This document shows positions 3,732-35,400 of a stretch of DNA of 35,400 nucleotides, piece by piece. Every line of letters starts with the position of its first letter. Position 1 is the first letter of the stretch. The translations under genes and the position numbers were made by a program. The DNA comes from Planctomycetota bacterium (lineage in GTDB: Bacteria > Planctomycetota > Phycisphaerae > Phycisphaerales > UBA1924), in NCBI GenBank assembly GCA_024275365.1, contig JAJRZG010000255.1, positions 1 to 35,400 on the forward strand, read 5' to 3'. The notes under the pieces were generated by a model. It did not search any database and was not told where the DNA came from. It saw only the letters and a program-made list of their open reading frames with translations.

Positions 3732-3981
3732 TGGCTCGGTTCCCGGTGCAACGGCTCTCCGAGCCGTGCATGTCGCGTGCGCACCTCTTTTTTTGAACGC
3801 CGATACTCCATGTTTTTACGAGCCCCGAGCGCAAGCCCGAGAGAAGGGAATGTCCAGCATCGCAGACAAAGCCCGACCCTGTGCTCGCGTACAGGGCTCG
3901 TAGAGACACACACAAAGTCACACAATCCGTATCACACGCACGGCTCGGAGAGCCGTCCCACCGGGGACCGGATTCCGCACA
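3732..3981. repeat. Nested inverted repeat: family A outer arms with a complete family B element inside
   Basis: Left arm ctggctcggttcccggtgcaacggctctccgagccgtgcatg; right arm is its near reverse complement (cacgcacggctcggagagccgtcccaccggggaccgg). Family B element lies at 3817-3902. Confidence 0.8.
3817..3902. repeat. Family B dyad repeat, copy 1 (86 bp)
   Basis: TACGAGCCCCGAGCGCAAGCC...CCCTGTGCTCGCGTACAGGGCTCGTA with terminal inverted repeat TACGAGCCC/GGGCTCGTA. Confidence 0.85.
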
Positions 3982-9859: not shown

Positions 9860-9960
9860 TCAACCTCCCGCCGACCCCACCAGTTCACCGCTACCCTCGA
9901 ACCGCTTCATCGCTGCGAGCAACTGCTCGACCTGCTGGGGCGGCTTCATGTTCATGAGCT
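9860..9960 (-). pseudogene. Fragment of a second, diverged rho gene (C-terminal ~33 codons plus stop)
   Basis: Reverse complement encodes LMNMKPPQQVEQLLAAMKRFEGSGELVGSAGG*. The intact rho ends LMNMKPPQQVEQLLAAMKRFESNAMLVGSAAGKQA*. Confidence 0.85.
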
Positions 9961-10170
9961 AACGGCGAGAACTCCAGCTCGGCCTACCTCTTCCACCCCG
10001 TGCCCTGCAGGGCCGACCTCACCGGCGACGGTGTGGCAGACATCCTGGATTTCCTCGGGTATTTCGCGTTGTGGACAGCCCACGACCCCAACGCCGATTG
10101 GAACAGCGATGGTAAAATTAACACCCTCGACTTCATCGCGTTTCTGAGAAACTGGGCAGCGGGGTGTTAG
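9958..10170 (+). pseudogene. C-terminal fragment of a dockerin/EF-hand-tailed protein
   Basis: Frame has no start: ANGENSSSAYLFHPVPCRADLTGDGVADILDFLGYFALWTAHDPNADWNSDGKINTLDFIAFLRNWAAGC*. Two DxxGDG/DxNSDGKI-type loops, TAG at 10168-10170. Confidence 0.75.
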
Positions 10171-10344: not shown

Positions 10345-11580
10345 TTAGGCTTGCTTGCCCGCTGCCGACCCCACCAGCATGGCATTGCTCTCAAACCGCT
10401 TCATCGCGGCTAAAAGCTGCTCGACCTGCTGGGGCGGCTTCATATTCATCAGCCGACGCCGGAGGGCGGTGATGGTCGCGAGGGTCTGGGGGTCGAGGAG
10501 TTTCTCATCTTTGCGGGTGCCGCTGGCAGCGAGGTTGATCGCGGGGAAGAGCCGCTTCTCGCTGATCTTGCGGTCGAGGATGAGTTCCATGTTGCCGGTG
10601 CCCTTAAACTCCTCGAAGATCACCTGATCGCCCTGGCTTCCGGTATCGACAAGACAGGTCGCCAGAATAGTCAGGCTGCCCGCTTCTTCGGTGTTGCGGG
10701 CAGCGCCAAAGAGCAGCTTGGGCACTTCGAGCGCCTTCGAGTCGATCCCGCCACTGAGAGTTCGGCCCGAACTGGCGTGCTGTCTGGATCGGTTAAACGC
10801 CCTGCCGACACGGGTCAGCGAGTCGAGCATGATGACCACATGCTTGCCGGCCTCGACCATGCGCTTTGCCCGCTCGACGGTCGTGGTGCTGACCGCCACA
10901 TGCCGCTCTGTGTCGTGGTCGTTGCTCGAAGCGATGACCTCGATCCGGTCGCCCCAGGGCGGGGATTTGCGAGACTGCTTGCCGGTGTCGGGGTCGCGAG
11001 TCATCGGCCCGAGGAACGACCGCTTGAAGTCGGTCACCTCTTCCGGCCGCTCGTCGACGAGCAGCATGAACACATACAACTCGGGGTGGTTGGTCAGTAG
11101 GCCTGTTGCGATATCTTTAAGGAGCGTAGTTTTGCCGGCCTTGGGAGGCGACACGATCAAGCCGCGTTGCCCGCGCCCAATCGGGCAGAACAGATCAATC
11201 AATCGGCATGAGTCCGGGCAGCCCGGGTGCTCAAGAGCCAGCATCGGCTCAGGATCGATCGAGGTCAGGTCGGCAAACTGGGGTCGTGTGCAGAACTCCT
11301 CGGGAGGCATCCCCTCGATCGAGACAAACGACTCGACCACCGGGCGCGGGGGCCTGGGAGCGTTGTTCTGCTTGTGCTTGCCCGCCCGACGCCGCCGGCG
11401 GGGCTTTTTCATGGTCACGGTAACAGTGACCTCGAGCCCGTTGCGCAGGTTGAACTGCTCGCCAAAGGCAAGGGGGACAAAGGGGTCGTCAGCGTGTTCG
11501 AGGATGTTCGCGTCCTGCAACTGGCGAACACGACCCTCGGCGCGCTGAGGCCACTCAAGGATACCGGTCAGCGTTTCCAT
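10345..11580 (-). CDS. rho: Transcription termination factor Rho
   Basis: LIVSPPKAGKTTLLKDIA (Walker A), LLVDERPEEVTDF, VVIMLDSLTRVGRAFN, SGGIDSKALEVPKLLFGAARN, LILDRKISEKRLFPAINLAASGTRKDEKLL. Likely start METLTG (11580). Confidence 0.95.
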   Translation of the reverse strand: METLTGILEWPQRAEGRVRQLQDANILEHADDPFVPLAFGEQFNLRNGLEVTVTVTMKKPRRRRRAGKHKQNNAPRPPRPVVESFVSIEGMPPEEFCTRPQFADLTSIDPEPMLALEHPGCPDSCRLIDLFCPIGRGQRGLIVSPPKAGKTTLLKDIATGLLTNHPELYVFMLLVDERPEEVTDFKRSFLGPMTRDPDTGKQSRKSPPWGDRIEVIASSNDHDTERHVAVSTTTVERAKRMVEAGKHVVIMLDSLTRVGRAFNRSRQHASSGRTLSGGIDSKALEVPKLLFGAARNTEEAGSLTILATCLVDTGSQGDQVIFEEFKGTGNMELILDRKISEKRLFPAINLAASGTRKDEKLLDPQTLATITALRRRLMNMKPPQQVEQLLAAMKRFESNAMLVGSAAGKQA

Positions 11581-11808: not shown

Positions 11809-13578
11809 ATGCAGATTCTCCAAGGCATCCCTGTTTCGTCGGGCATCGTTATCGGGCGGGTCTTCGTGCTCGACCACGACCCCCACCGCGTCGCCCGCTG
11901 GACGGTCAGCCCGGATCGTGCTGAGGACGAGGTCGCCAGGTTTGATACCGCGATCGAGCAGTCTCTGGCCGATCTCGATGGTGTCTATGCCGAGGCTGAA
12001 GCCGAACTGGGCATCGAAACGGCCAAGATATTCCTCTTCCACAAGGGCATGCTCAGCGACCCCTCGCTCATCGATCCCATCCGCGAGATGATCCGCCAGG
12101 AGCGGGTCAACGCCGAGCACGCGGTTGTGGTGGCCTTCGACGCGCTCGCCCGGGCCTTTCGTCGGCAACGAAACTCCGCCTTTCGCACGAAAACAGACGA
12201 TATCCGCGACCTCGCCACCCGCGTGCTCGACCACCTCATGGGTTCTGGACCCGCCCGGCTTGCTGAGCTTGAGCACCCCGCGATCATTGTCGCCACCGAC
12301 CTGACCCCCTCCCAGACCGCAGCCTTTGACCGCGAAACCATCGTCGGGTTTGTCACCGACCTGGGCGGCAGGACAAGCCACACCGCCATCGTCGCCAACG
12401 CGCTCGAACTCCCTGCGGTCGTCGGCTGCCGAAATATCACCATGACCGCAAAGGCCGGGCACACCGCCATCATCGACGGCGACCGGGGTCTGGTCATCCT
12501 CGACCCAGAGCCTCAGGAACTCGAAAAATACCGAGGATTCATCGAGCAGCGACGCACCTACCAGCTCTCGCTGGCCGAGGTCGCCGATCTGCCCAGCATC
12601 ACCCGAGATGGCATCCACATCCGAATCTTCGGGAATATCGAGTTTCCTGAAGAATGTACCACCACCATCGAAAAAGGCGGCGAAGGAGTCGGGCTCTACC
12701 GCTCTGAGTTCCTCTACTTTGCTGGCGGCGAGAGCGAGCCCACCGAGGAAGACCACTTCAATGCCTATACAGAATGTCTCGATCGGCTGCATGGCAAGCC
12801 CCTGACCATCCGCACCGTCGATCTCGGGGCTGACAAATATACACAGTCACAGGCAGTAACGCCCGAACGAAACCCGGCTCTTGGGCTTCGCTCGATCCGC
12901 TACAGCCTTGCAGACAAACCCGCGTTTGTCAGGCAACTCCGAGCGATCCTCCGGGCCAGTGCGCTCGGGCCGGTCAAAGTCATGTTCCCCATGGTCACAA
13001 CCATCGGTGAGCTCAGGCAAGCCAAGCATATCCTCGGGGATGTCATGGAAGACCTCGATGATCTCGGGGTCGAGTTTGACCGTGGGATCGAGGTCGGGGT
13101 GATGATCGAGCTCCCCGCAACAGCCCTCACAGCCCCCACCTTTGCCCAGGAGGCCCAGTTCTTCTCAATCGGGACAAACGATCTGGTGCAATACACCCTG
13201 GCGGTCGATAGAACCAATGAACGGGTCTCGTCGCTCTATCAGCCGGCCCACCCCGCGGTCGTCCAGCTCATCCGCATGATCGTCAAAGCTGCCAATAAAG
13301 CAGAGATCGAGGTCTCCTGCTGCGGCGAGGCAGCGGGCGAGCTAGACTACGCCCTCTTGCTGATGGGGCTGGGGCTCCGGACCCTCTCGGTGCCCGGCAA
13401 CTCCATCCCCCACCTCAAACGGCTGGTGCGGAGTGTTTCGATACAGCAGTGCGAGCGGATCGCCCGAAAGGTGCGGTCGTTCTATTCGGAAGTCTTGGCC
13501 GCGACCTATCTGCGCGACCAGACACGGAAATTGGTCCCCGAGGCCTTCGACGGGCGTGCTGTCGAAGCAAGGGATTGA
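11809..13578 (+). CDS. ptsI: Phosphoenolpyruvate--protein phosphotransferase (PTS enzyme I)
   Basis: GIPVSSGIVIGRVF, FVTDLGGRTSHTAIVANALELPAVVG (phospho-His site), GVGLYRSEFLY, FFSIGTNDLVQYTLAVDRTNE, SCCGEAAGE. Start at MQILQGIP. Confidence 0.95.
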   Translation: MQILQGIPVSSGIVIGRVFVLDHDPHRVARWTVSPDRAEDEVARFDTAIEQSLADLDGVYAEAEAELGIETAKIFLFHKGMLSDPSLIDPIREMIRQERVNAEHAVVVAFDALARAFRRQRNSAFRTKTDDIRDLATRVLDHLMGSGPARLAELEHPAIIVATDLTPSQTAAFDRETIVGFVTDLGGRTSHTAIVANALELPAVVGCRNITMTAKAGHTAIIDGDRGLVILDPEPQELEKYRGFIEQRRTYQLSLAEVADLPSITRDGIHIRIFGNIEFPEECTTTIEKGGEGVGLYRSEFLYFAGGESEPTEEDHFNAYTECLDRLHGKPLTIRTVDLGADKYTQSQAVTPERNPALGLRSIRYSLADKPAFVRQLRAILRASALGPVKVMFPMVTTIGELRQAKHILGDVMEDLDDLGVEFDRGIEVGVMIELPATALTAPTFAQEAQFFSIGTNDLVQYTLAVDRTNERVSSLYQPAHPAVVQLIRMIVKAANKAEIEVSCCGEAAGELDYALLLMGLGLRTLSVPGNSIPHLKRLVRSVSIQQCERIARKVRSFYSEVLAATYLRDQTRKLVPEAFDGRAVEARD

Positions 13579-16524: not shown

Positions 16525-16610
16525 TACGAGCCCCGAGCGCAAGCTCGGGTTTGTGAATGGCCGATTGTCACAGGCATGTCCCAATCCTGTGCTTGCGCAC
16601 AGGGCTCGTA
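16525..16610. repeat. Family B dyad repeat, copy 2 (86 bp)
   Basis: TACGAGCCCCGAGCGCAAGCTCGGG...CCTGTGCTTGCGCACAGGGCTCGTA. Same length and termini as the 3817-3902 copy. Confidence 0.9.
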
Positions 16611-16639
16611 GAAACACACGAGCTATATTCGCAATCTCT

Positions 16640-19155: not shown

Positions 19156-19190
19156 GGGCGTTGGCACGGGGGAGGGTATGGAGTTGAATG

Positions 19191-19251
19191 GTGGCACGGC
19201 TCTCCGAGCCGTGAGGGAATCAAGACACACGGCTCGGAGAGCCGTGCCACC
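19191..19251. repeat. Family A inverted dyad
   Basis: GTGGCACGGCTCTCCGAGCCGTG (19191-19213) and CACGGCTCGGAGAGCCGTGCCACC (19228-19251), followed by a partial third copy. Confidence 0.9.
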
Positions 19252-19274: not shown

Positions 19275-20267
19275 CTACGCCCCTTTACGGATTGACTCGG
19301 CGCACCCTGGGATCAGGTCGGCAAGCTCGCTTGCAAGCAGGCCAGCCGAGGCTTTGTGCTGCTCGGCCCAGCGTTCGCCAGCGAGGGCATGGACCAACAC
19401 ACCGGCGCGGGCGGTCTCGAAGAGATCAGAGGTATGTACCGGCTGGAAGCCGGTCCCACGGGCTGAAACCGCCTGGACGCCGGTCCCGCATCCTGCAACA
19501 CCCTGCCCGATCAGCCCTGCAATCACGCCGGTGAGCACATCGCCTGTGCCGGCGGTGCCCAGGCAGGCGTGCCCCCTCGGGCAGACCCACAAGCGGTGGC
19601 CATCGGTGACGACTGTGCCCGCGCCCTTGAGCACCACGATGCACCCGAGCTTCTGGGCCATCGCTTGGGCAGCAGCCGGGCGTTGGGCGGGGTCGGTCGG
19701 GTCGAGCGTGATCTTGAGCGGCCCAGCCAGCCTTCGGAACTCGCCGGGGTGGGGTGTCAGGACAGCAGAGGCCCGGAAGTCGCGGGCAAGCTCAGGAATG
19801 CCGGCAAGGGCGTTGATCGCGTCGGCATCGACAACAACCGGGAGGGTGTCCTGCATCACCGCGCGGAGCGTGACCGCTTCGACTCCCTGGCTACCCTCGG
19901 TGTCACTCCCCAGCCCAGGCCCAACGGCGAGGGCATCGCACGAAGCAAAGACCGAATCAAGCAGGGCGGCTGCCTCGTGGGCGATGATGGTGCCCGTCGA
20001 GTCTGTCGGCAGCACGACTCCCGTTGCTGAGGGCGTGATGGCGAGCGCCCCGGCAAGCACGGGCTCGGGGCAGACAAGCCGGGCGAGCCCAGCGCCAGCC
20101 CGGAGCGCACCGAGGGCTGCGAGGGCGGGCGCACCGATCATCATCGCGCCACCCGAGACACACCCCCCGATCACCGCGATGGTGCCAAACGATCCCTTGT
20201 GCCCGAGGGGGTCACGGGCAGGCAGGCAGGGCTCTGGGAGGTCTGGTTCGGGGGGGTCTCTTGTCAC
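19275..20267 (-). CDS. nnrD: ADP/ATP-dependent NAD(P)H-hydrate dehydratase (YjeF C-terminal type) with in-frame repeat insertion
   Basis: KGSFGTIAVIGGCVSGGAMMIGAPALAALGALRAGAGLARL, LTPHPGEFRRL, VVLKGAGTVV, CLGTAGTGDVLTGVIAGLIGQG. Family C insertion at 19438-19484. Confidence 0.9.
   Translation of the reverse strand: MTRDPPEPDLPEPCLPARDPLGHKGSFGTIAVIGGCVSGGAMMIGAPALAALGALRAGAGLARLVCPEPVLAGALAITPSATGVVLPTDSTGTIIAHEAAALLDSVFASCDALAVGPGLGSDTEGSQGVEAVTLRAVMQDTLPVVVDADAINALAGIPELARDFRASAVLTPHPGEFRRLAGPLKITLDPTDPAQRPAAAQAMAQKLGCIVVLKGAGTVVTDGHRLWVCPRGHACLGTAGTGDVLTGVIAGLIGQGVAGCGTGVQAVSARGTGFQPVHTSDLFETARAGVLVHALAGERWAEQHKASAGLLASELADLIPGCAESIRKGA
19438..19484. repeat. Family C repeat, two direct hairpin units inside nnrD
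   Basis: ACCGGCTGGAAGCCGGTCCCACGGG and ACCGCCTGGACGCCGGTCCCG. Translated on the minus strand as TGVQAV...TGFQPV. Confidence 0.85.
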
Positions 20268-21830: not shown

Positions 21831-22121
21831 TTTTTTACCGCAGAGGACGCAGAGTTGCGCTGAGGAAAGGCATGAAGATATTTTTAACCACAGATGAACA
21901 CAGATGAACACAGATAAAGGCAAGAAGATGAGTGGTGGCACGGCTCTCCGAGCCGTGCGAGTTGGATAATGCCCGAAACTCACGGCTCGGAGAGCCGTGC
22001 CACCATGTCCTTCATCTTTCTTCATCTGCCTTTATCTGTGTCAATCTGTGTTCATCTGTGGCAATACTGCCTTTTTCCTCTGCCTTCACTCAGCGAAACT
22101 CTGCGTCCTCAGCGGTAAAAA
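21831..22121. repeat. ~290-bp nested palindrome with three concentric inverted shells
   Basis: Outer TTTTTTACCGCAGAGGACGCAGAGTT.../...AACTCTGCGTCCTCAGCGGTAAAAA; middle ACCACAGATGAACACAGATGAACACAGATAAAGGCA.../...TGCCTTTATCTGTGTCAATCTGTGTTCATCTGTGG; inner family A dyad 21934-22004. Confidence 0.9.
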
Positions 22122-22137
22122 TAGAGATGTATCGCCC

Positions 22138-23439
22138 TTACTGCTCGAGTGCATCGAGCCAGTCGAGCAGCGCGGGGGCTTTGGCGGGCAAATACGCCAA
22201 GAAGAGCACCTCGTGCCCGACCGGGGCTGCCCATCGTTCGGGCTCGCCGAGGCGTTGCCAGAGCAGGTCGCCAGTTGCTGCGGGCACCGCCTTGTCTGTG
22301 CTGCCGTGGAGCATGAGGATGGGGATATCAGCCATGCGCGGGGCGGTGTGGTAGCTGTCGAAGGGGGCAGCGTCGAGGTAGAGCTTGGTGAAGCGGTCGG
22401 CTGCATCAGAGAGAGCCGGATCGCGCACGGCTCGGAGAGCCGTGCCACCGTCGGCATCGTCAGCCCATTCGATGCGCACCGCGTTGATCCAGTCGGCGTA
22501 GTTGCTCTCCATCGCGATGGCAGCAAAGTCACACCCCGCCCCGATAAAGACGGCCGCCTTGTATGGACCGGGCTCCCGGGCGACAACGGTGGGCAGGAGC
22601 ATCCCGCCGCCACTCATGCCCAGAGCAACGCGGGTGTCGATCGGGATTTCGGGGCGGGTGTCTGCGATAAAGGCACAAACCGCTTCGGTCGCAAGGGCGT
22701 TCTCGACCGCGCGGTCGCCGAGCTCGTCTGCGATCTCGCGGGCGATGGCTTCGAGGTTGCCCTCGGGGTCGAGCGTGTACGACACTCGTTCTGTAAAGCG
22801 GGAGGAGTGGGTGAGCATGCGGAGCACATGCCAGCCGCGATCGCGGAGCATCCCGACGAGGCTGTCGATCATGGCTTCGGGTGTGCCGAACATCCCGGGG
22901 AGGAAAACAACCACGCCCTTTGATGGTGTCGCGTCTCCTGTACGGGGCGCATAGAGGGCAAACCAGGTGCGTTGGAGTTGCACCGTGTCACCTTCGCGTC
23001 GGTCGGCAGAGAGGTATTCGTAGGCTGCCATGGGCTTTCCTGCCAGGCGAGCGGTGCGCGAGAGCTTGCCCTCGGGCATGCGCACGACGACGGATCCCTC
23101 GCCCTCGAAGCGGACCGTGCTGTTCTTGAGCATGTCGGTTATCCGCGTCGCGTCGGCGACATCGGCCTCCTCCCAGCCCATGCCGAACTCGCTGACCCAG
23201 CGCAACGCCCATGGCCCGACCTTGAGCTCTCGCACCAAAACTGCTTCCCGGGTCGGCCAGGGGAGGGGCTCGGTGGCTGCCGCGGCTGGGGGTTCGGGCT
23301 GATCGGGCTGATCGGGCTGAGTGGCGCACGCAGCCTGAGAGAGTGTCGCTATCGCGGCGAGCAGGAGACACGCGATCCCCCTCCTCCTTGAGGAGGGGGT
23401 GGTCGCGCCAGTGACCGGGGGAGGTGCGGAACTGCACAA
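22138..23439 (-). CDS. Alpha/beta hydrolase lipoprotein (start uncertain; ORF is open to 23733)
   Basis: Lipobox-like ACLLLAAIATLSQAAC, GVVVFLPGMFGTPEAMIDSLV, VALGMSGGGMLLPTVVA, ILMLHGSTDKAVPAATGDLLWQRLG. Contains family A repeat in frame (GGTALRAV). Confidence 0.7.
   Translation of the reverse strand: MCSSAPPPVTGATTPSSRRRGIACLLLAAIATLSQAACATQPDQPDQPEPPAAAATEPLPWPTREAVLVRELKVGPWALRWVSEFGMGWEEADVADATRITDMLKNSTVRFEGEGSVVVRMPEGKLSRTARLAGKPMAAYEYLSADRREGDTVQLQRTWFALYAPRTGDATPSKGVVVFLPGMFGTPEAMIDSLVGMLRDRGWHVLRMLTHSSRFTERVSYTLDPEGNLEAIAREIADELGDRAVENALATEAVCAFIADTRPEIPIDTRVALGMSGGGMLLPTVVAREPGPYKAAVFIGAGCDFAAIAMESNYADWINAVRIEWADDADGGTALRAVRDPALSDAADRFTKLYLDAAPFDSYHTAPRMADIPILMLHGSTDKAVPAATGDLLWQRLGEPERWAAPVGHEVLFLAYLPAKAPALLDWLDALEQ
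22426..22449. repeat. Single family A hairpin inside the hydrolase CDS
   Basis: CACGGCTCGGAGAGCCGTGCCACC, encoding GGTALRAV on the minus strand. Confidence 0.9.
23377..23430. repeat. Family E GC-rich repeat
   Basis: CCCCCTCCTCCTTGAGGAGGGGGTGGTCGCGCCAGTGACCGGGGGAGGTGCG. Same layout as 26261-26314 and 34950-35000. Confidence 0.8.
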
Positions 23440-23529
23440 ACACCCAAACCCAATGACTTTCGCAGACAATGCACGGATTGCAGCAGAATACGGTGTGGAG
23501 CGAGGCACGCGGGTCGATGTAGAGTGCCG

Positions 23530-23644
23530 CACCTCCCCCGGCCATCGCTTCGCTCGGCCACCCCCTCCGCAGGGCGGAGGGGGCTCGACGCACCTCCCCC
23601 GGCCATCGCTTCGCTCGGCCACCCCCTCCGCAGGGCGGAGGGGG
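23530..23644. repeat. Family E: two identical 54-bp direct copies, 61-bp period
   Basis: CACCTCCCCCGGCCATCGCTTCGCTCGGCCACCCCCTCCGCAGGGCGGAGGGGG at 23530-23583 and 23591-23644. Confidence 0.95.
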
Positions 23645-23690
23645 ATCGGGCGGGCGAGATGCCCGCCCCACTGGAGGGGAATGCAGCAGG

Positions 23691-24854: not shown

Positions 24855-26180
24855 TCAGAGTGACGACCTTGCAAACTCTCGGGCGGTTGCATCGAGCGTT
24901 AGGACCTCTTCGAGCGTTTCGGGCATTCGTGGGACCGGCTTCCAGCCGGTGCGTGCGCGTTCCTGTTTCGATGTGGTCTGCTTGGAGCCTAAACTCAATC
25001 GATGCGCACCGCCTGGAAGGCGGTCCCACGGGGTGTCTCCTACTGGGATATTTCGGAGCGCGGCTTCCACAATCTCGACGATCCGCCCGAAGGGGATCGT
25101 GCGGTCAAGGAATGCCTGCACCGCGACCTCGTTGGCTGCATTAAAGACCGTGCCCGCTCCGCCGCCACGACGGATGACCTCATAGGCAAGCCCGATTGCG
25201 GGGAACCGCTCCGGGTCGGGCTCGGTAAAGTCGAGGCTGGTGAGTGTGCGCCAGTCAAGCTGCGCAGCACACCCGGGCAGGCGCATCGGCCAGGTGAGGG
25301 CGAGCTGGATGGGGCTCCGCATGTCGGGGGTCGAGAGCTGGGCGATGCTTGAGCCGTCAGCAAGCTCGGCGATGGCGTGAACGATCGACTGCGGGTGGAT
25401 CAGCACGCCCAAATGATCGGCATCAAGTTCAAAGAGCCAGCGGGCCTCGATGAGTTCGAGCCCCTTGTTGACCATCGTCGCCGAGTCGATGGTGTTCTTT
25501 TTCCCCATGCTCCAGGTTGGGTGGGCGAGGGCTTCTTCGACGGTTGCGGTGCGCATCGTGTCGATGGGCGTGGTGCGGAAGGGGCCACCAGATGCAGTCA
25601 GGATCGCCCGGGTGAGGATCGGAGGCACAACACACGGGGGCACAAGATGCTCGCCCCGTGGGCAGAGGCCCTGGAGGCATTGCCACAAGCCGGAGTGCTC
25701 GCTGTCGATGGGGAGCAGCCTGCTGCCAGCCCGGCGGGCGAGGGGGACAACCAGATGCCCGGCTGCGACGAGTGTTTCTTTGTTGGCAAGGGCAATATCA
25801 ATGCCCAGCTCGGCAGCAGCCAGGGTCGCGGGCAGGCCGGCAGCCCCGACCATCGCCGCGACAACCAGGTCGGGGCGGGTCTCGCGGACGAGCTGCTCGG
25901 GGGCATCGCGGCCTTGAAAGCTGCGGGCGGGGATGTCGAGTGCCGTGTCGGGGTTTGCCAGCGCAACGAAAGGGACGCTGAAACGGTGGGCCTGCTCAGT
26001 AAGAAGCTCAGCACGCGTCCCGGCAGCAAGGCCGACCACCTCGAACCGCTGACGCGATTGGCCCGCATCGGCAAGGGCGTTGAGGTGGGCGATGGTCTCG
26101 AGGGTCTGGGTACCAATCGAACCAGTCGAACCAAGCACCACGACCCGGCGATGGATGATGTGTGAATCTGGGAGACTCAT
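24855..26180 (-). CDS. dxr: 1-deoxy-D-xylulose 5-phosphate reductoisomerase with in-frame repeat insertion
   Basis: VVVLGSTGSIGTQTLETI, ALANKETLVAAGHLV, LPIDSEHSGLWQCLQG, ILTASGGPFR, HPTWSMGKKNTIDSATMVNKGLELIEARWLF. Start MSLPDSHI (26180). The 26975 start is an antisense extension. Confidence 0.93.
   Translation of the reverse strand: MSLPDSHIIHRRVVVLGSTGSIGTQTLETIAHLNALADAGQSRQRFEVVGLAAGTRAELLTEQAHRFSVPFVALANPDTALDIPARSFQGRDAPEQLVRETRPDLVVAAMVGAAGLPATLAAAELGIDIALANKETLVAAGHLVVPLARRAGSRLLPIDSEHSGLWQCLQGLCPRGEHLVPPCVVPPILTRAILTASGGPFRTTPIDTMRTATVEEALAHPTWSMGKKNTIDSATMVNKGLELIEARWLFELDADHLGVLIHPQSIVHAIAELADGSSIAQLSTPDMRSPIQLALTWPMRLPGCAAQLDWRTLTSLDFTEPDPERFPAIGLAYEVIRRGGGAGTVFNAANEVAVQAFLDRTIPFGRIVEIVEAALRNIPVGDTPWDRLPGGAHRLSLGSKQTTSKQERARTGWKPVPRMPETLEEVLTLDATAREFARSSL
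24930..25031. repeat. Family C inverted dyad inserted in the dxr CDS
   Basis: GGGACCGGCTTCCAGCCGGTGCG...GCGCACCGCCTGGAAGGCGGTCCCACGGG. Confidence 0.9.
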
Positions 26181-26227: not shown

Positions 26228-26412
26228 TCCGATCCAGTGGGGTGGGCGTCTCGCCCGCCCGATCCCCCCCCGCCCTGCGGAGGGGGTGGTTGCGCAGCAA
26301 CCGGGGGAGGTGCGAGACGCTCAAAGACCAGTCCCGGTCGGCTCGACTCCTCAGACACACCTCCCCTGACCATCGCTTCGCTTGGCCACCCCCTCCGCAG
26401 GGCAGAGGGGGA
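26228..26412. repeat. Family E inverted pair with flanking GGGTGGGCGTCTCGCCCGCCC hairpin
   Basis: CCGCCCTGCGGAGGGGGTGGTTGCGCAGCAACCGGGGGAGGTGCG and CACACCTCCCCTGACCATCGCTTCGCTTGGCCACCCCCTCCGCAGGGCAGAGGGGG. Confidence 0.85.
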
Positions 26413-27204
26413 TCACGCCTGCGCATACCCAAGCAGTCGGCAGGTCTGGGCGTAGTCGTCGCTGGCCTCGAAGAACTCGCGGGTGGTGGGGTCGAGCGTG
26501 CGTCGGGCAGCCGGTCTGATTTCGCCGATGGCTTTGGCAAGTGTTGCCTCGTCGCCGGTGGTGTTAGCATAAGTTCGGTAGCGATCATGCCAGGTCGGGT
26601 CATACACAACACCCAGCCCTTCGCAGAGGCTGGCAAGCTCGGCATCGGGGTCGAGTGTGAAGTCTTCATACCGGACGAACCCGACATCTGTGGCAAGCTC
26701 GGCAAAGGCCCGGCAGCCACGGAGGTAGACCGCGGGATCGACCCTGCCCCGAAGCATGTCGAGCCGTTGCTGGCTGACCCACTGGTCGGCGGGGTGGCGG
26801 ACTGTGGCGAATCGAGAGATCGCAAATCGCGAGCCCAGCAGCTGCGACGATCGGCTGGTGAAGCCGGGCTCTGTGAAGGGTGTGCCGAGGAAGTCCAGGT
26901 GCGACCAATCGCGGATGAGGAGGGCTTTGCCCGTGTCGCGTGCGCGCTTGGCGAGCAGGAGCATGAGTTCGTCATATCGGCCCCGCCCGCTGCGCCATGT
27001 GGATATCTCAGCGGGCTTGAGCAAGCCGTGCCACCGCATCGCCTGCTCGGCTGGGTCGATCATGCGGACACCCAGCGGGTGGACCTCGCTGAGCAGCGCG
27101 ACACCTTCCATACACCCGAGGCACCGGCTGATGAGCGTGCCGCCGGAGCGGGCGAGGTTGAGCCAGAGGGCCAGGTGGGGTGGGGTTGGGGGTGAGGGAG
27201 GCAT
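26413..27204 (-). CDS. Sulfotransferase-like protein
   Basis: LWLNLARSGGTLISRCL (PSB-like loop), RFATVRHPADQWVSQQR (PB-like), VRYEDFTLDPDAEL. Confidence 0.7.
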   Translation of the reverse strand: MPPSPPTPPHLALWLNLARSGGTLISRCLGCMEGVALLSEVHPLGVRMIDPAEQAMRWHGLLKPAEISTWRSGRGRYDELMLLLAKRARDTGKALLIRDWSHLDFLGTPFTEPGFTSRSSQLLGSRFAISRFATVRHPADQWVSQQRLDMLRGRVDPAVYLRGCRAFAELATDVGFVRYEDFTLDPDAELASLCEGLGVVYDPTWHDRYRTYANTTGDEATLAKAIGEIRPAARRTLDPTTREFFEASDDYAQTCRLLGYAQA

Positions 27205-34822: not shown

Positions 34823-35027
34823 GAGCCCCTCGCGCACGCGAGGGCTTGATCCCCCTCCGCTTTGCGGAGGGGGTGGCCGAGCGAAGCGATGGTCGGGGGA
34901 GGTGCGTCTTGGGGGTTGATCTGACGGCAACTGCACTTTGGACAGTTCGCACCTCCCCCGGTCGCGTGCGCGACCACCCCCTCCTCAAGGAGGAGGGGGA
35001 GCAACCCCTCGCGTGCGCGAGTGGTTC
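34823..35027. repeat. ~205-bp composite inverted repeat (family E arms plus outer CTCGCG hairpins)
   Basis: CCCTCGCGCACGCGAGGG...CCCCCTCCGCTTTGCGGAGGGGGTGGCCGAGCGAAGCGATGGTCGGGGGAGGTGCG / CGCACCTCCCCCGGTCGCGTGCGCGACCACCCCCTCCTCAAGGAGGAGGGGG...CCCCTCGCGTGCGCGAGTGG. Confidence 0.9.
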
Positions 35028-35043
35028 AATACCAAAGAAAACC

Positions 35044-35096
35044 TCACGGCTCGGAGAACCGTGTCACCATCTCACGGCTTGGAGAACCGTGCCACC
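35044..35096. repeat. Two direct family A copies (29-bp period) overlapping the pdxA 3' end
   Basis: CACGGCTCGGAGAACCGTGTCACC and CACGGCTTGGAGAACCGTGCCACC. Confidence 0.9.
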
Positions 35097-35400
35097 TTTT
35101 GGGCCATCTTTGCTGCCAGGAGCATCGCAGCCTTCATACTCCCTGCATCAGCAACATTGCGCCCCGCAATATCGAAGGCGGTGCCATGGTCGGGGCTTGT
35201 GCGCACCGTCGGCAACCCCACGGTGACATTGACCGCTTCATCACGGTAGAGCAGCTTGAGGGGGATCAGCCCTTGGTCGTGATACATCGCCACGACGAGA
35301 TCGAACTTTGCCCGTCGGCCCTCGGGGCTGGGGATTGCGTCGCGGAAGACCGTATCGCCCGGATAGGGCCCCGAGGCCTCGATGCCATGCCCGCGGGCGA
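35072..35400 (-). CDS. pdxA: 4-hydroxythreonine-4-phosphate dehydrogenase, C-terminal part (continues beyond window)
   Basis: [12 protein letters not shown]...[64 protein letters not shown]. Confidence 0.93.

Follow-up and report, generated by a model that had tools for sequence, protein, structure and literature searches.

The window, the 35,400-nt stretch of DNA analysed here as a whole, carries on its minus strand nnrD (19275-20267), an NAD(P)H-hydrate dehydratase gene named by similarity, with orthologues in 41 of 41 genomes and 74% identity to that of G003. An earlier note on this DNA had proposed that a palindromic unit lies in frame in this gene at 19438-19484, in two copies of direct orientation. 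Both copies were found, one exact and the other decayed; the interval covers both cores, but the GTGG heads and the ends of the units fall outside it. Unit 2 (19435-19461, minus strand) has the exact 17-nt core at 19438-19454 and a GTGGG head at 19455-19459, encodes RGTGFQPVH, and matches the 27-nt consensus of the family, CCGTGGGACCGGCTTCCAGCCGGTGCG, except for the last 3 nt. Unit 1 (19465-19491, minus strand), a repeat-family match of 74% over 39 nt in direct orientation, has its core at 19468-19484 and a GCGGG head, and encodes CGTGVQAV. The two palindromes, 30 nt apart and in the same orientation, encode about 18 residues; the stretch of NnrD in the window reads RGTGFQPVHTSDLFETAR. The segment is thus a direct pair of one decayed and one intact repeat.

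The AF2 model of NnrD, built with 24 aligned sequences, was confident nearly everywhere (mean pLDDT 90.7), except at residues 258-275, the sole segment with pLDDT below 50. This loop (19443-19496, minus strand), between helices 241-256 and 282-304, is the repeat-encoded peptide. When the three genomes of the window's genus were aligned, their loops were free of the repeat and 2-7 residues longer, with 32 (G001), 31 (G002) and 27 (G003) residues against 25 in the window, and had a common DPxxxxLPEQARRALG-like motif. Across relatives the length of this loop is hypervariable. A clean insertion was therefore rejected for nnrD: because the congeners carry a repeat-free, longer loop at the same place, the alignment indicates that repeat DNA has overwritten an ancestral variable loop, as a replacement with no net added length. 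The loop is thus ancestral and the palindrome is not, which bears half-way on the circumstance that the earlier note had named against itself, an ancestral segment without the palindrome. In the simplest reading, the model suggests that the site is probably a tolerated, disordered surface loop.

The same unit was found in dxr (24858-26060, minus strand), encoding DXP reductoisomerase, in which Pfam found DXP_reductoisom, DXP_redisom_C and DXPR_C on one ORF, and which is 77% identical to that of G003 as far as the insertion. Here an exact copy, GTGGGACCGGCTTCCAGCCGGT (24929-24950, plus strand, antisense to the gene; core 24934-24950), is read as RTGWKPVPR, and a decayed inverted partner (25008-25033, minus strand), identified as a repeat-family match, is read as TPWDRLPGGAHR; the translated pair is TPWDRLPGGAHR...RARTGWKPVPRM. 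It adds 37 residues between EIVEAALRNIP and ETLEEVL, which are absent in G002, G003, G009, G013 and G016. By this alignment the inverted pair in dxr is a clean in-frame insertion. The earlier note was right that the units are direct in nnrD and inverted in dxr, and that a modular unit is independently present in two enzymes; its view that both are independent in-frame insertions holds for dxr but not for nnrD, where a loop was replaced without gain in length.

The repeat was then counted in the window genome, a 3.2-Mb draft of 350 contigs that is 85% complete. The 17-nt core, ACCGGCTTCCAGCCGGT, occurred 53 times exactly and 70 times with at most one mismatch in the whole draft, and its reversed pattern did not occur in these 3.2 Mb; the match in nnrD is therefore not due to chance. 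A 22-mer gave 87 copies with at most two mismatches, and 0 in the controls. Alignment of the 53 copies yielded the 27-nt conserved unit, and all of them had a GTRG head (48 GTGG and 5 GTAG). The family has three features of a REP: a short imperfect palindrome (20-40 nt in REPs; here a 17-nt core within the 27-nt unit), GTRG 5' of the hairpin, and a high dispersed copy number. GTRG-headed repeats are the signature of REPs recognised by RAYT (TnpAREP) proteins (PMC8266576, PMC3733652), and the nnrD unit is a GTRG-headed REP of this kind. Neither this identity nor the probable spreader, a RAYT, was in the earlier note. No stop codon was present in any of the six frames of the 27-nt consensus, because the head is mostly GTGG rather than GTAG; a GTAG head would give TAG in one frame, and GTAG REPs are described in PMC3733652 as often supplying the stop codon to flanking ORFs.

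At least 16 of the 53 exact copies were in frame within 11 protein genes with recognisable domains, a lower bound, since the ORFs spanning each copy were extracted and the likeliest were scanned with Pfam. Two exact copies each were present in rdgB, mfd (C181), a sulfotransferase (C202), rnhB (C308) and a FAD-oxidase/Fer4 protein (C65), and one each in nnrD, dxr, aconitase (C109), purH (C328), a DeoC-type aldolase (C329) and a class V aminotransferase (C16). The recurring, tolerated in-frame placement that had been suggested from two genes was therefore seen in at least 11 genes of this genome; comparison with empty relatives covered nnrD, dxr and rdgB. Other exact copies lay just upstream of tyrS, DHOD, an epimerase, BtpA and DAHP synthase. 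Four tandem 20-nt REP units (ACCGGCTTCCAGCCCGTGGG) were also observed at L003 (G000:C21:10171-10252), and such an array is perhaps an intermediate of the kind that yielded the direct pair in nnrD.

A search of the window genome for Y1_Tnp (PF01797) gave three matches. One, on contig C149, was a RAYT at 12338-12898 between inverted exact REP copies at 12347 (plus) and 12876 (minus), within one open frame of 555 amino acids that runs RdgB-N, RAYT, RdgB-C. The frame reads ...GARFVCVMVLAN-RGTGFQPVP...[RAYT]...HRLEAGPTV-QANTRGTFEGRLG..., with RdgB/HAM1 on the flanks, and Pfam placed Ham1p_like in two stretches around Y1_Tnp. The two RdgB halves around the RAYT were the only rdgB matches in the 85% complete draft, and no second rdgB was found in it. 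In an AF2 model of the 413-aa RdgB::RAYT protein of this genome (mean pLDDT 72.6; 14 aligned nested RdgB proteins), the whole chain matched the HAM1 structure 3tqu (TM 0.81 by target) and the middle part matched the RAYT-REP complex 4er8 (TM 0.69 by target, E 1.4e-8; Foldseek), with the REP-encoded linkers in low-confidence parts. Both an RdgB and a RAYT fold are thus predicted in one chain.

The RAYT closest to that of C149 was the nested one of G002 (74% identity). G002 had the REP of the window genome 74 times (at most two mismatches), and four exact copies flanked its RAYT; the same REP was not found in G003, whose RAYT is distant. This correlation suggests that the C149 RAYT is most likely the cognate mover of the REPs in the window genome, and the GTGG hairpin CGTGGGACCGGCTTCCAGCCGGTGCG would, by analogy with known RAYTs, be its candidate substrate.

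Nesting was not peculiar to this genome. RAYTs in long stop-free frames inside rdgB, valS, leuS and miaA were seen among 61 relatives. When 400 genomes of the order were searched, 81 strong matches to the RAYT clade (E below 1e-39) were obtained in about 70 genomes, and 75 of the 81 were in frame inside identified housekeeping genes: valS (37), rdgB (19), leuS (16), miaA, dnaK and kbl (1 each). To stand alone, with a start and a stop of its own, is usual for a RAYT gene though not strictly defining, and 75 of the 81 departed from this. Stand-alone copies were few (G110, the second copy of G093, and G056); the count of 75 leaves out these as well as the second copy of G273, G390 and G269. In G043 three different RAYTs (L076, L164, L165) were nested at once in rdgB, valS and leuS.

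There was no stop codon in any of the 73 nested RAYTs examined, and dN/dS of the RAYT part was 0.08-0.15 in the seven pairs of relatives with measurable divergence, an eighth pair being nearly identical and uninformative. These ratios indicate that the nested RAYTs are under purifying selection. The HUH motif (H55-V56-H57) and Y119 were invariant in the 14 members of the seed alignment; the valS-nested copy of G006 aligned without the catalytic Tyr. Inverted palindromes, mostly with GTRG-like heads, flanked the RAYT in 70 of 73 nested members, exceeding all 60 shuffles, and were not detectable in the other three. Where checked, there was no extra copy of rdgB and none of valS above the cut-off. 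Nesting was also present in single-contig genomes (G001, in rdgB; G093 and G099, in valS), and therefore is not an artefact of assembly.

On the RAYT tree, the host-gene label changed 9 times, compared with 35.7 times after shuffling of the labels (none of 200 shuffles gave so low a number), and most copies therefore stay with their host gene. The four rdgB genes of the window's genus formed one clade (support 99/97) in a host tree that took in 24 genes, many having been missed by the motif finder. The RAYTs of the genus, on trees built from about 142 columns and weakly resolved at depth, did not form one clade: G000 and G002 grouped with G231/G254, G003 with G360/G102 (both starred on the RAYT tree), and G001 elsewhere. 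This discordance suggests that the same rdgB loop probably received RAYTs more than once. The loop was also occupied in unrelated genera, and rdgB of G009, with a plain 14-residue loop against 225 residues in its congeners G360 and G102, provided an empty site within a genus.

Outside the order, other Planctomycetota had a longer-headed group of RAYTs in open frames reading alaS (G444, G465, G514), purH (G560) and fabZ (G444), and also in oxidoreductase and DNA methylase frames. BLAST of these phylum-wide hosts against valS, leuS, rdgB and miaA gave no match; reading showed the other hosts, which were identified by eye except for purH and fabZ. A scan of GTDB genomes found more distant RAYTs, from Verrucomicrobiota and other taxa, in alaS, recG, thrS, ileS, metH, gcvP, purH and RarA-type ATPase frames. 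Pfam found the host domains together with Y1_Tnp in examples of alaS, recG, thrS, ileS, metH and gcvP, and fell short in the FabZ case (L287) and in L305 and L310, with FabA on one side only or Y1_Tnp below threshold. Judged from these reading frames, RAYTs are repeatedly nested in frame in essential enzymes of several bacterial phyla. An intein with protein splicing was rejected as a candidate: no Hint domain appeared in Pfam scans of 15 ORFs (the RdgB fusion of the window genome and 14 others), 13 of which had Y1_Tnp, all but L305 and L310.

We propose that the REPs in nnrD came from a cognate RAYT, and that the REP-RAYT-REP unit is itself nested in frame in housekeeping enzymes and expressed as a domain of the host enzyme, a reading to which we give a probability of about 0.8. 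The RAYT of the genome would most likely disperse the REPs as 27-nt, GTRG-headed single-strand hairpins, by a cleavage and transfer of single strands like that known from TnpAREP biochemistry; on the same analogy, intragenic insertions would survive only where they keep the reading frame and fall in surface loops. There an in-phase REP would be translated as a flexible Gly/Pro-rich linker, and could be translated and survive because the consensus is stop-free in six frames. The RAYT would exploit the same tolerance, sitting as REP-RAYT-REP in frame within a housekeeping enzyme (here rdgB). We infer from the open frame that it is translated as part of that enzyme: a nested RAYT with no stop of its own should therefore be made as a host-enzyme domain. 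Lodging in an essential gene would protect the RAYT from frameshift loss, because a frameshift there would also destroy the enzyme, and the GTGG head may have been favoured since it avoids TAG. More broadly, though with distinctly less assurance, we favour the view that a widespread RAYT clade persists as an in-frame domain of essential enzymes (ValS, LeuS, alanyl-tRNA synthetase, RdgB, RecG, MetH and others), the host gene giving expression and insurance against frameshifts, and the hairpin heads avoiding stops and so being translatable.

The copies in nnrD and dxr could instead be plain intragenic REPs without consequence, and the RAYT in rdgB an unrelated coincidence. Frame-keeping intragenic REPs have already been described in several species (PMC3733652), which makes this conceivable; however, exact copies of the very same REP border the nested RAYT, its closest relative has that REP too, and most of the clade (75 of 81) is nested, so we consider such a coincidence unlikely. 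Slightly less likely again is domestication, in which the inserted RAYT would now serve the host enzyme as a functional domain, for instance in regulation by single-stranded DNA. That the RAYTs are under strong purifying selection and persist at orthologous sites would agree with domestication. Against it stand their spread over six or more unrelated host enzymes within the order, with further hosts elsewhere, and the polyphyly of the rdgB-nested RAYTs within one genus, and the intact HUH and Tyr residues suggest ordinary RAYT activity. Since many of the genomes are draft metagenome assemblies, the nested RAYTs might be chimaeras of assembly, or pseudogene scars in a dead host enzyme. We regard this as very improbable in view of the single-contig cases, the stop-free frames with low dN/dS, the lack of another rdgB or valS copy over the cut-off where checked, and the use of the same loop in unrelated genera. 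Least credible is convergence, by which the DNA of an ordinary NnrD loop of variable length would have come to resemble the repeat without any mobile element. Although this loop is hypervariable in length and longer in congeners, unit 2 with its GTGGG head exactly matches a 53-copy repeat whose reversed control is 0, which already contradicts convergence.

Rickettsia palindromic elements (RPEs) are likewise palindromic repeats in frame in protein genes; they are set apart by a different taxon and the greater length of RPE-1, and no RAYT is known to be linked to them. Inteins with nested homing endonucleases likewise place a mobile DNA-processing enzyme in frame at tolerated positions of conserved enzymes, but they splice via Hint, whereas the scanned ORFs here showed no Hint domain and gave no sign of protein splicing, and the insert is expected to stay in the enzyme.

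The closest known systems are REP/BIME repeats with their RAYTs, or REPtrons (PMC3733652, PMC8266576, PMC6006769), which likewise have GTRG-headed short hairpins in many single, direct or inverted copies and a HUH/Tyr transposase with the same hairpin, inverted, on its two sides, and 4er8 is matched by the fold predicted here. Most known REPs, however, lie outside genes and have GTAG heads, and known RAYTs form genes of their own, whereas here many REPs are inside genes and the RAYT, which lacks its own stop, lies within the frame of a housekeeping gene. Frame-keeping short palindromes in presumed flexible regions also appear in the relevant sections on intragenic REPs of Opitutus terrae, Thauera and others (PMC3733652) and on REPs that lie within subclass 2.4 tnpAREP genes (PMC6006769); those sections describe short repeats only, and nesting of a transposase in host enzymes is not described there. 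According to PMC6006769, TnpAY1 proteins longer than expected were set aside there as fusions or annotation errors, and this may be the reason that nesting escaped notice. In openly licensed papers we found no account of RAYTs nested in frame in core enzymes. The nnrD feature therefore belongs to the already known frame-keeping intragenic REPs, and the novelty lies in the in-frame nested RAYT.

RAYTs are usually single-copy and are kept over long periods with no obvious transposition; the cause of their persistence is an open question. Living in frame within an essential gene would answer it in a concrete and testable way. This reading predicts that chimaeras are numerous among tRNA synthetases and other core enzymes, which databases may treat as annotation errors, and offers natural examples of core enzymes that tolerate insertions of about 190 residues.

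The window also contained other repeats. A second GTGG-headed palindrome family (GGTGGCACGGCTCTCCGAGCCGTGC) was present at 3745-3770, 3934-3962, 19188-19251, 21934-22006, 22424-22449 and 35042-35099, and its copy at 22424-22449 kept the frame of an ORF that resembles an alpha/beta hydrolase (ADDADGGTALRAVRDP). A third family of palindromes, of greater length (CCCCCTCCGCAGGGCGGAGGGGG plus CGAGCGAAGCGATGG...GGGGAGGTGCGG), occurred at 23373-23408, 23526-23656, 26228-26433 and 34829-35033, and read PPPCGGGGRAKRWPGEVR in translation, near the N-termini of open frames. Between genes, 21832-22121 consisted of nested inverted repeats with arms of 41 and 35 nt (90-94%) made from CACAGATGAACACAGATAAAGGCA and TTTACCGC...GGACGCAGAG motifs. 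A repeat of 52 nt (81%) at 3860-3911 and 16568-16619, which contains a CTGTGCTTGCGCACAGG palindrome, is possibly a fourth short repeat family. Finally, a 98-nt stretch (9870-9967 compared with 10364-10461) shared 80% identity with the 3' end of rho, the neighbouring gene, and is perhaps the remnant of a partial duplication.
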